Below are positions 13,300 to 19,644 of a stretch of DNA of 39,879 bases, one piece after another. Position 1 is the first letter of the stretch; every line of letters begins with the position of its first letter. Both the position numbers and the translations under genes were made by a program. Source of the DNA: Rhodothermia bacterium (GTDB taxonomy: Bacteria; Bacteroidota; Rhodothermia; Rhodothermales; JAAAOL01); NCBI GenBank assembly GCA_030428385.1, contig JAUIDY010000053.1:1-39879 (forward strand), in the 5' to 3' direction. Below the pieces are notes generated by a model. The model worked only from the letters and a program-made list of their open reading frames with translations, ran no database searches and was not told the DNA's origin.

Positions 13300-14163
13300 T
13301 TATCGGCTGCGGCCACCGCCCTGGTTGCCGCCACGACCGCCGCCGCGTCCACCGCGACCGCCGCCACTGCCACCACGACCACCACCGCTATCATTACCGC
13401 CACGACGACGGCGACGACGACCACCATCACGGCCACCGCCGTCCTGGTCGTTACGTCCCCCTCGACGGCCACGGCGCTCACCCTGCATTTGCTGCATCTG
13501 CTGGCGCTGGGCCTGTACGTTCGGGCTCAGGTCGGGCTTGCCGAGAATTTCGCCCCGGTAGATCCATACCTTCACGCCCGTGGTGCCATAAATGGTATAG
13601 GCTGTGCCTTCGGCGTAGTCGATGTCGGCACGGATCGTGTGCAGCGGCACCCGGCCTTCCAGGTACTGCTCCACACGGCCCATTTCGGCACCGCCCAGGC
13701 GACCGCCCAGCTTGATCCGGATGCCTTCGGCACCCATGCGCATCGCGGCGGTAATGGCCTGCTTCATGGCCCGGCGGAACGAGACACGGCCTTCGAGCTG
13801 CTGCGCGATGTTTTGCGCAACAAGGCTGGCGTCCAGTTCAGGACGCTTGATCTCGTTGATGTTGATCTGGATATCCTTGCTCGTGAGCTTTTTCAGTTCC
13901 TCGCGTAGCTTTTCCACCTCAGCCCCGCCGCGGCCAATGACCACGCCCGGGCGACTGGTGTGCAACGTGAGGATCACGCGCTTCGGCGTCCGCTCAATGA
14001 CGACCCGGCTGAGGCCAGCCCGCTTCAAACGTGCCGTCAGGTACCGACGAATCTCTTCGTCTTCAAGCAGCTTTTCCGGCATGTCTTTCTCGGCATACCA
14101 GTTGGAGTCCCAACCGCGAATGACGCCGAGTCGAAATCCGATAGGGTGTGTCTTCTGTCCCAA
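13300..14163 (-). CDS. rpsC: 30S ribosomal protein S3 with RGG-rich tail
   Basis: S3 forms part of the mRNA entry channel. The 287-residue protein has the normal N-terminus [20 protein letters not shown], the KH domain with VVIGRGG (residues 74-80) and the C-terminal domain with [14 protein letters not shown] and [13 protein letters not shown] (to about residue 206). After that comes a roughly 70-residue tail (about 13303-13518). It starts Gln-rich (RQQMQQMQ) and turns into Arg/Gly repeats ([32 protein letters not shown]). RGG runs are known as flexible RNA-binding segments. The rpsC core is otherwise normal and in standard order. Confidence 0.97.
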
Positions 14164-16855: not shown

Positions 16856-17485
16856 TTACTTCTTCTTATACAACTCTACGTAGCTGCCTTTCGGCCCTGG
16901 CACCGCGCCGCGCACCAGGATCAGGTTATGATCCGGCAAGATGCGGACGACCCGAAGGTTCTTCACGGTGCGGCGCGCACCGCCGGTGCGTCCTCCCATG
17001 CGCATGCCTTTAAACACACGCGACGGATCCGACGAAGCCCCGATGGAGCCCGGCGCCCGCTGGCGGTTGTGCTGGCCGTGGGTCGCGTCGTTCACCCCGG
17101 CAAAGCCGTGGCGCTTCACCACGCCCTGAAAACCTTTCCCCTTTGCTACGCCGAGTACATCAATGATCTCGCCTTCAGCGAAGACTTCTTCAACACGTAC
17201 TTCGTCGCCAAGGACTACCTCGTTCGTAAAGTCACGAAATTCCTTGACGTAGCGCTTCGGGGTCGTGCCGGCCTGCTCAAAATGGCCCTGCTGGGCACGC
17301 GAGGTACGCTTCACCTTTTTGTCGTCGTAGGCCAACTGGACGGCGGCATAACCATCGTCGCCGTCAGCTTCCTTGACCTGCGAGACCACGCATGGCCCCG
17401 CCTGGATGACAGTACAGGGAATGTTATTCCCGAAGTCGTCAAAGACGCTCGTCATCCCAATTTTTTTTCCAATGAGTCCGCTCAT
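16856..17485 (-). CDS. rplC: 50S ribosomal protein L3
   Basis: L3 is an early-binding large-subunit protein reaching toward the peptidyl transferase centre. The 209-residue protein begins [20 protein letters not shown] and contains the signatures [18 protein letters not shown] and [40 protein letters not shown] follows. It is normally directly after rpsJ, but here a lipoprotein gene separates them; the rplC start follows the lipoprotein stop by 61 bases. Confidence 0.97.
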
Positions 17486-17546
17486 TGCAATCCTGTGGTT
17501 TGTGGCGACCGCTGCCGCCGGATTGGTAAGCTGTGCATGTTTATAG

Positions 17547-18014
17547 CTACTGGCGCGTGACGGTCAGCGTCACGCTCCCGGTGTAGTTCGTACCGAAAGC
17601 CGCGTTGACGATGTCCGACTGGCTTGTCAGTTCAATCTGGTTGTTGCTGACCACGTTGTACGTGAACGGCAACGTCGCTCCCAGCGCAGGGATGGCCAAC
17701 GAAAGGTTCGTTTCCGTCACCGTGTAGGTGCCTGCCGCCGGAAGGTCCGGCTGGCCGGCCTGGTTGGCGAGGTCGTTGTAGTCAAGCAGCAGGTTGAAGC
17801 TTCCATCCTCCTCAAACGTCACCGTGAGGCTGTTGGCAACCGCGCCAAAGGCAGCTGTTTGGTCACCGTCACCATCCGTGATGCTGGTAACGGCCCAGTT
17901 GCCCACAAAAACGTCGGCAGGATCATCATCACTGCTATCACAGCCGACAACCGTCAGCAGGGCAAACGAGGTGATGATGGTAAAAAAGAGCTTGCGTAAA
18001 ACTTGGGTCTTCAT
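17547..18014 (-). CDS. small lipoprotein encoded inside the S10 operon
   Basis: This 155-residue protein has a classic lipoprotein signal: basic start MKTQVLRK, a hydrophobic stretch and the lipobox TVVGC (Cys25), followed by an acidic linker (DSSDDDPAD). The start at 18014 is decided by a GGAGGG Shine-Dalgarno sequence (18021-18026, 6 bases upstream) and by the signal peptide; the same frame extends upstream to 18065 without a signal. The mature part reads [14 protein letters not shown], then alternating beta-strand segments ending [10 protein letters not shown], which resembles lipocalin-like lipoproteins of Bacteroidota. It lies 47 bases after rpsJ and 61 before rplC on the same strand, so it is probably cotranscribed. 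Its role is unknown. Confidence 0.85.
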
Positions 18015-18061
18015 GATGGTCCCTCCAGGTAAGGAATGACGGTGTAGAAACGCCCGATTGG

Positions 18062-18373
18062 TCACACTTTGATTTCGACGTCCACGCCGCTGGGCAATTC
18101 CAGCTTCATCAACGCGTCCACCGTTTTGCTGCTCGTCGACAGGATGTCGATGAGACGTTTGTGGCTGCGTGTCTCAAATTGCTCGCGGCTTTTCTTGTCC
18201 ACGTGCGGAGACCGCAGCACGGTGTAGATCGACTTCTTCGTGGGCAGCGGAATCGGTCCGCTTACCACAGCGCCCGTCGACTTTACCGTCTTGATGATTT
18301 TTTCCGCGCTCTTGTCGATGAGCGTATGGTCGTACGACTTGAGTTTGATGCGGATTTTCTGGCTTGTTGCCAT
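18062..18373 (-). CDS. rpsJ: 30S ribosomal protein S10
   Basis: S10 is in the head of the small subunit; it is also NusB's partner in antitermination. The 103-residue protein has [20 protein letters not shown], then [40 protein letters not shown] and [13 protein letters not shown]. All are family signatures and the length is normal. It lies 74 bases after tuf, with a strong hairpin in the spacer, and is followed by the lipoprotein gene rather than rplC. Confidence 0.98.
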
Positions 18374-18400
18374 AGTTTTTCTATCTCTTCAGGAACGAAC

Positions 18401-18430
18401 GCAGGGGCGCGAATGGCTTCGCGCCCCTGC
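18401..18430 (-). terminator. strong hairpin between tuf and rpsJ
   Basis: GCAGGGGCGCGAA (18401-18413) pairs perfectly with TTCGCGCCCCTGC (18418-18430): 13 bp with a 4-base loop. On the minus strand the bases after it (GTTCGTTCCTGAAG) are not a clean T-run. It may be a terminator or attenuator separating the str and S10 parts, or an mRNA processing or stability element. It is the strongest hairpin I see inside the ribosomal cluster. Confidence 0.55.
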
Positions 18431-18447
18431 CCGTTTACATACAATGC

Positions 18448-19644
18448 TTAGTCGAGGATTTTGGCGACGACACCGGCACCCACGGTCCGGCCCCCCTCAC
18501 GGATCGCAAAGCGCAACCCCTCTTCCATCGCCACCGGCTGGATCAGCTTCACGCGGAAGTTCGTGTTGTCACCCGGCATCACCATCTCCACACCTTCGGC
18601 GAGTTCGATGTCGCCCGTCACATCCGTCGTGCGGAAGTAAAACTGCGGACGGTACCCCTTGAAGAACGGCGTGTGGCGACCCCCTTCGTCTTTCGACAAA
18701 ATGTACACCTCACACTCAAACTCCTTGTGCGGCGTCACACTACCCGGCTTGATCAAGCACATCCCACGCTCCACATCGTCCTTCTTCGTACCGCGCAAGA
18801 GCACACCCGCGTTGTCGCCTGCCTGGGCGCTATCCAAGAGCTTGCGAAACATCTCCACTCCCGTTACGGTCGTCGATTGCTTCTCTTCCTGCATACCAAT
18901 GATGTCCACCACGTCGCCCACCTTCAGCACACCGCGCTCGACGCGGCCCGTCACCACCGTGCCACGACCCGTGATCGAAAACACGTCTTCGATCGGCATC
19001 AGGAACGGCTTGTCCGTGTCACGCTCCGGCGTCGGGATGTATTCATCGACGGCCGTCATCAGTTCCATGATCTTGTCTTCCCACTCCGTCTCGCCGTTGA
19101 GCGCAAGCAGCGCCGAGCCGGCGATCACCGGCACGTCGTCGCCCGGGAATTCGTACTGGTCCAGGATCTCGCGCACTTCCATCTCGACGAGCTCCAAGAG
19201 CTCTTCGTCGTCGACCAGGTCGACCTTGTTCATGAACACGACGATGTAGGGCACGCCCACCTGGCGCGCCAAGAGGATGTGCTCCCGCGTCTGCGGCATC
19301 GGGCCGTCGGTGGCAGCGACGACGAGGATGGCCCCGTCCATCTGCGCCGCCCCGGTGACCATGTTCTTGACATAGTCGGCGTGGCCAGGGCAGTCGACGT
19401 GCGCGTAGTGGCGCTCTTCGGTGGCGTACTCGACGTGGGCCGTGGCGATGGTGATGCCACGCTCACGCTCTTCGGGCGCGTTGTCGATCGAGTCGAACGA
19501 GCGGACGATGTTGGCCGGGTCTTCGACGCGGCGCGAGAGGACCATCGTGATAGCGGCCGTGAGGGTAGTTTTGCCGTGGTCGACGTGGCCGATGGTGCCC
19601 ACGTTGACGTGCGGCTTCGTGCGTTGAAACGTCTCCTTCGCCAT
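18448..19644 (-). CDS. tuf: elongation factor Tu
   Basis: EF-Tu brings aminoacyl-tRNA to the ribosome and hydrolyses GTP. The 398-residue protein has the G1 motif GHVDHGKT (residues 19-26), the switch region [16 protein letters not shown]3 DCPGHAD, G4 NKVD and G5 SAL, followed by domains II and III ([25 protein letters not shown]). The C-terminus AKILD is normal. It follows fusA by 36 bases, the standard str order. Only one tuf copy is in the window. Confidence 0.98.

Follow-up and report, generated by a model that had tools for sequence, protein, structure and literature searches.

In the window, by which we mean the whole stretch of 39,879 nucleotides analyzed here, the border between the ribosomal protein genes rpsJ and rplC holds an open reading frame for a 155-amino-acid lipoprotein, which we call LP. 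Taking the data together, we give a probability of about 60% to the explanation that LP is a vertically inherited, cotranscribed lipoprotein of the outer membrane, with a lipocalin-like fold, that is made in proportion to ribosomes. Few gene strings of bacteria are as conserved as the ribosomal protein operons, and here a fast-evolving envelope lipoprotein has been retained inside one across an order. In the open-access literature, which leaves most subscription journals out of scope, no description was found of a lipoprotein gene placed in this way within the S10 operon.

The minus-strand gene series of the window reads rpsL, rpsG, fusA, tuf, rpsJ, LP, rplC, and rplD, followed by S10 and spc genes, the names of genes other than those searched being read off their translations. 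The features around LP are the following.

16856 to 17485, minus strand: rplC (L3), from homology and open reading frame.
17480 to 17531, minus strand: conserved RNA element ahead of rplC, with P1 (GCUUA/UGAGC) reaching into the start codon, P2 (CAAUCC/GGAUUG), and the P3 hairpin; covariance model R1, 56.5 bits here.
17547 to 18014, minus strand: LP, lipoprotein gene with an ATG start, from open reading frame and translation; about 60 Rhodothermales genomes have a homologue at the same position.
17550 to 17942, minus strand: predicted mature LP from Cys25, with an acidic stretch of ten residues and then a lipocalin-like barrel with an invariant G-x-W, from AlphaFold2, PDB match, and Pfam.
17943 to 18014, minus strand: putative signal peptide, residues 1 to 24, read from the sequence (MKTQVLRK, hydrophobic stretch, LLTVVG-C); the lipobox Cys is invariant in alignments A1 and A2.
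18021 to 18026, minus strand: GGAGGG ribosome binding site of LP, 6 nucleotides before the ATG, from the sequence.
18062 to 18373, minus strand: rpsJ (S10), from homology and open reading frame.
18394 to 18435, minus strand: strong hairpin between tuf and rpsJ, with no T-run after it; fold z of -3.7.
18448 to 19644, minus strand: tuf (EF-Tu), from homology and open reading frame.

The open reading frame coordinates agree exactly with the claim of an earlier note that a lipoprotein gene lies at this border, separated from rpsJ by 47 bases (18015 to 18061) and from rplC by 61 bases (17486 to 17546). The strong ribosome binding site described in that note is present in the window, but it is not a property of the LP family as a whole. 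Translation could also begin at a GTG that overlaps the rpsJ stop (18065), although this start has no ribosome binding site.

Both rpsJ and rplC were located in 114 Rhodothermales genomes, and 99 rpsJ-rplC intervals were measured. Their length is bimodal, with 60 intervals of 500 to 693 bases, 38 of 11 to 117 bases, and a single one, in family f10, of 266 bases. All 60 intervals of the long class contain a same-strand frame for a lipoprotein of about 150 to 190 residues with a lipobox and the G-x-W motif; no lipoprotein was found in the 38 short intervals, nor any lipoprotein frame in that of f10. This comparison of spacing in related genomes, suggested by the earlier note, supports its proposal of a lineage-specific insertion, LP being kept at this place in most families of the order, lost repeatedly, and absent there in nearly all outsiders. 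The bearers belong to ten families (f1, f2, f4, f5, f8, f9, f11, part of f12, most of f13, and f14). LP is absent from the whole of families f3 and f15 and from single species within LP genera (f5 g6 and g48), and these absences, together with the repeated losses, indicate that it is dispensable in evolution and not essential. One genome (G074) has two rpsJ-rplC loci on separate contigs (L100 and L101), one near the window lineage, its LP being about 55% identical, and the other resembling f13; the genome is probably a mixed bin.

LP is limited to a single order, or possibly to two. In the other orders of the same class, the rpsJ-rplC interval measures 13 to 85 bases, the exception being f16, another lineage of the class (L109 and L112), where a lipoprotein of about 145 to 150 residues with a VGSW or VGTW motif overlaps the rpsJ stop. 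The match of this protein to the LP family profile is weak (hhalign probability of 33%), and its kinship to LP is doubtful. Elsewhere, the rpsJ-rplC intervals examined were short or noncoding, none of them carrying an LP-type lipoprotein gene. The premise that rpsJ usually lies close to rplC was also borne out: in one contig scan with rplD (A3), comprising 80 loci with only few Rhodothermales among them, almost all outsider gaps were below 260 bases, the largest was 330, and none held such a lipoprotein gene.

The N terminus of LP has the sequence features of a signal peptidase II substrate, that is, a positively charged start, a hydrophobic stretch, and a lipobox (VVGC, with Cys25), and the cysteine is invariant in 40 relatives; LP is thus a predicted lipidated lipoprotein. 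All or nearly all of the 40 members compared share the Cys, both the G and the W of the G-x-W motif, and two more positions, whereas the rest of the protein evolves fast. In a first search, covering 60 relatives, the LP homologues were 30 to 47% identical, and most of them were encoded between rpsJ and rplC. The Pfam family Lipocalin_4 (PF13648) matches residues 37 to 108 of the window LP, including the G-x-W with which the barrel starts, with an E value of 2.9e-4 and 22.1 bits, just below the gathering cutoff of 22.4, and it matches 13 of the 40 relatives at an E value of 0.01. A contig scan with P0001 found no relatives, and a sequence search of the PDB with LP gave no significant match to any solved structure.

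Structure prediction and homology search of the mature protein, both advocated in the earlier note, point to a lipocalin-like barrel. The AlphaFold2 model (pLDDT of 79.9), built on 4 sequences and the best of five varying models (pLDDT of 39 to 80, the other four being poorer), shows a barrel of eight strands, the last of which is preceded by a short helix. This predicted barrel superposes on known members of the fold, the best PDB match being 4qrl (Z of 11.7, root mean square deviation of 2.2 over 96 residues). The top matches are Bacteroides lipocalin-like proteins (4qrl, 4gzv, 4iab, and 4i95), with many lipocalins after them, and Foldseek returned E values of 3e-5 to 8e-4 for ten chains. 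The structural match speaks to the predicted fold and says nothing of a ligand. In being a small secreted domain with an eight-stranded barrel, LP thus most resembles the lipocalin-like lipoproteins of Bacteroidota (PF13648; 4qrl, 4gzv, and 4iab), from which it is set apart by the sequence comparisons given above. To our knowledge, no Lipocalin_4-type gene of Bacteroidota lies in a ribosomal operon. Blc of Escherichia coli (3mbt), which matches the LP model with a Z of 8.4, is likewise an outer membrane lipoprotein with a lipocalin barrel, although it belongs to another sequence family, and blc is a stress gene located outside ribosomal operons.

The ten positions following the cysteine contain a mean of 3.9 acidic residues across LP members. 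In Bacteroides fragilis, SDDDD after the cysteine is a surface export signal of lipoproteins (PMC5080379), and the corresponding run of LP resembles it in most families but not in the Salinibacter types (f13). Since f13 members have few acidic residues there, such a surface signal would not be general across LP, and the odds that LP is exposed at the surface appear evenly balanced. Binding of a ligand is suggested more tentatively. Our best guess is that LP is an abundant, perhaps surface-exposed, ligand-binding lipoprotein. The genome of the window also encodes an LP paralogue (L150, contig C224, 4825 to 5280) in an apparent cluster of FecI, FecR, the paralogue, an M23 peptidase, a TonB receptor, and DUF4249. 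In f12 g25, where the rpsJ-rplC interval has no LP, a relative with about 40% identity (L148, 5144 to 5620) lies directly before a TonB-dependent receptor gene. The labels of these neighbors (FecI, FecR, M23, and TonB receptor) are readings of their sequences, and the proximity of both genes to TonB receptor genes suggests that the wider LP family may act at the outer membrane together with transport proteins.

With regard to expression, no consensus (sigma-70-like) promoter was found between 16000 and 19500 of the window, and the TAnnTTTG promoter motif, with 13 matches in the window versus 7.8 expected by chance, does not occur at the LP junctions. T-tailed terminators were absent from the rpsJ-LP and LP-rplC junctions of the LP genomes with placed junctions; G047 (f13 g14), the interval of which was scanned whole, gave one weak T-tailed candidate. 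The two junctions of the window are not unusually folded (z of +1.1 and -0.9). In many relatives, the LP start overlaps the rpsJ stop (ATGA or GTGA), and in f14 only 2 to 5 bases separate LP from rplC. Given the lack of T-tailed terminators and consensus promoters and the overlapping starts and stops, a single transcript is the best reading, and LP is probably cotranscribed with rpsJ and rplC. A terminator and a promoter of its own isolating LP, the finding that according to the earlier note would speak against its proposal, were thus not seen at the window junctions, where we found neither a T-tailed terminator nor a consensus promoter. A hairpin terminator lacking a T-run could nevertheless operate, since about a third of the LP-rplC spacers (11 of 34) fold more stably than shuffled sequences. 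Outside the LP bearers, clear terminators do occur in the rpsJ-rplC gap of some Bacteroidota in which that gap is long. Two such loci (L133 and L136) show a hairpin, a T-run, and a TAnnTTTG-like promoter in the gap, which marks an operon border in those genomes.

Codon usage was considered as a sign of high LP expression and gave no support. The codon adaptation of LP (0.687) is that of ordinary genes (0.685), but the ribosomal genes (0.677) do not stand out either, which deprives the test of power in this genome.

The spacer between LP and rplC in the window and in many relatives has the form GCUUA-x-CAAUCC-hairpin-GGAUUG-CA-AUGAGC, in which P1 pairs GCUUA with UGAGC into the rplC start codon. 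P2 occurs in compensatory variants (CAAUCC/GGAUUG, UAAUC/GAUUA, and AAACC/GGUUU), and P3 is optional and also varies. Searches with the covariance model placed a single site in each genome, and always at rplC; 27 genomes had theirs at an E value of 0.01 or better, and weaker sites were seen in f4, f9, and f12. Over 37 distinct sequences, 97% of the cells were paired and 7 pairs were changed on both sides, which none of 500 shuffles equaled, while slid versions of the structure had 19 to 40% of cells paired. As that alignment was fitted to the structure, the fairer count is that of a structure-free alignment, which gave 96% paired and 14 two-sided cells, again with 0 of 500 shuffles.

The element thus has what is expected of a ribosomal protein leader RNA, namely, a structure conserved through compensatory changes beside the start of a ribosomal protein gene, and it is an apparent translational control site, that is, a candidate ribosomal protein operator. 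No match to it was found in Rfam and no description in the open-access literature; the covarying RNA before rplC is a candidate for a new operator of this kind. Leaders of ribosomal protein genes, such as the S10 leader of E. coli, which is controlled by L4, are structured RNAs preceding a ribosomal protein gene; the element described here differs from the E. coli S10 leader in lying after rpsJ and LP, in pairing into the rplC start codon, and in having no Rfam match. It occurs both with LP (f1, f4, f5, f9, and f11) and without it (f7, f10, f12 g13 and g25, f13 g44, and f5 g6). Because LP sits between rpsJ and this apparent control site, LP and rpsJ would share S10 transcription but not that control. 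On the other side of rpsJ, the hairpin separating it from tuf could act in attenuation, could end transcripts of the str block, or could mark where transcripts are processed. Among the tuf-rpsJ gaps of the order and f16, 37 of 52 have a z below -2 with unrelated sequences, as compared to 2 of 27 rplC-rplD gaps.

According to the explanation we favor, the LP gene would have entered between rpsJ and the rplC leader early in the history of Rhodothermales and would then have been kept in most families and lost in several. Most likely sharing a transcript with rpsJ and rplC, LP would be made in proportion to ribosomal protein mRNA, lipidated, and brought to the outer membrane, on which it may face outward, and there it would most likely bind a small ligand (a lipid, a glycan, or a cofactor), as is common for this fold. 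The suggestion of the earlier note that LP is a growth-rate-coupled envelope factor is plausible, although we put the chance that its placing serves growth-coupled expression somewhat below even. If it does, envelope output is naturally tied to ribosome output at this locus. It is more speculative, and rather unlikely, that LP is a dedicated growth-linked envelope protein that, owing to its position behind rpsJ and ahead of an rplC leader pairing into the start codon, follows ribosomal gene transcription and escapes the translational feedback on the S10 genes; in that event, the outer membrane would receive one lipoprotein, be it a coat, a carrier, or a sensor of envelope capacity, in proportion to ribosome synthesis. 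An envelope-related gene within a ribosomal protein operon is not without parallel, since secY is found in the spc operon, but SecY is universal and essential, while LP has a narrow distribution and can be lost.

The chief competing explanation is that LP came to lie there by chance and has since been carried as a passenger. The rpsJ-rplC border would be a natural break between a str-like block (tuf to rpsJ) and the S10 block, and the expression level that LP reaches there would have no functional meaning. We regard this as unlikely but as a serious rival, because in other bacteria the str-S10 border has received nonribosomal genes, namely, bfd-bfr in Gammaproteobacteria and ilvEBNC-leuABCD in Bacilli (PMC8046335). 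Like LP, these are inherited nonribosomal genes within a conserved ribosomal cluster; they differ in lying between the operons, before rpsJ, and in encoding soluble products, whereas LP follows rpsJ on the same strand, closely spaced, and encodes an envelope lipoprotein. The chance reading would also fit the rpsJ-rplC gap of other Bacteroidota, which often measures 100 to 400 bases and in some cases contains a terminator, the position of LP upstream of an RNA element that is kept with or without it, its fast evolution and frequent changes of presence on the tree, and the location of the f12 g25 relative elsewhere, beside a TonB receptor. However, retention by 10 families at exactly this border and in one orientation, with starts overlapping rpsJ in many cases, is more than a chance passenger needs. 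Moreover, in the gammaproteobacterial cases the operon pair came apart in many species once the genes had been inserted (PMC8046335), while in LP bearers the gene order is kept.

An improbable alternative is that different lipoproteins of a common lipocalin-like pool were inserted several times at one hot spot. The copies of f13 (Salinibacter) and f16 are indeed very diverged, the latter as seen in the weak hhalign match, and profile A1 has no match to the Salinibacter ruber-type copies at an E value of 1e-4; the presence of LP on the rpsJ and rplC tree, the deep forks of which are poorly resolved, requires at least 11 state changes. Nevertheless, A1, which contains no f9, no f12 g32 or g37, and no f13 g40 sequence and represents f2 by G016 only, finds the rpsJ-rplC copies of these groups at E values of 1e-7 to 1e-31; for f9, f12 g32 and g37, and f13 g40, the range is 1e-7 to 1e-15. 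In the LP tree, the f13 g40 copies that it finds fall together with the Salinibacter types. LP distances also correlate with ribosomal protein distances of the hosts (Spearman coefficient of 0.49, reached in 0 of 2,000 permutations). Compared in this way, the LP copies appear homologous, with a homology not set up by position alone, and we take LP to be vertically inherited.

The dN/dS ratios of 12 close LP pairs range from 0.03 to 0.53, indicating that the frame encodes a protein under purifying selection. As the deep forks of the rpsJ and rplC tree are not settled, gain and loss are not formally separable across the order. Within genus f5 g6, the comparison points clearly to a loss: in G094 and G038 the interval is empty, and its sequence aligns with what separates LP from rplC in G005, the score being 74 to 77 against a shuffle maximum of 44 to 45, which fits a deletion of the rpsJ-side spacer together with LP. 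The same comparison gave no such alignment for the f5 g48 pair.

That the arrangement is an artefact of assembly or contamination has next to no likelihood, for while the window comes from a draft genome of 245 contigs, and the earlier note had allowed for absence from relatives together with an assembly join at 17500 to 18060, the synteny in about 60 other genomes, one of them with a contig of 3,551,823 bases (G013), excludes such a join.

Farther along the ribosomal gene series of the window, rpsC (S3; 13300 to 14163, minus strand) encodes a Gly/Arg-rich tail of about 70 residues.
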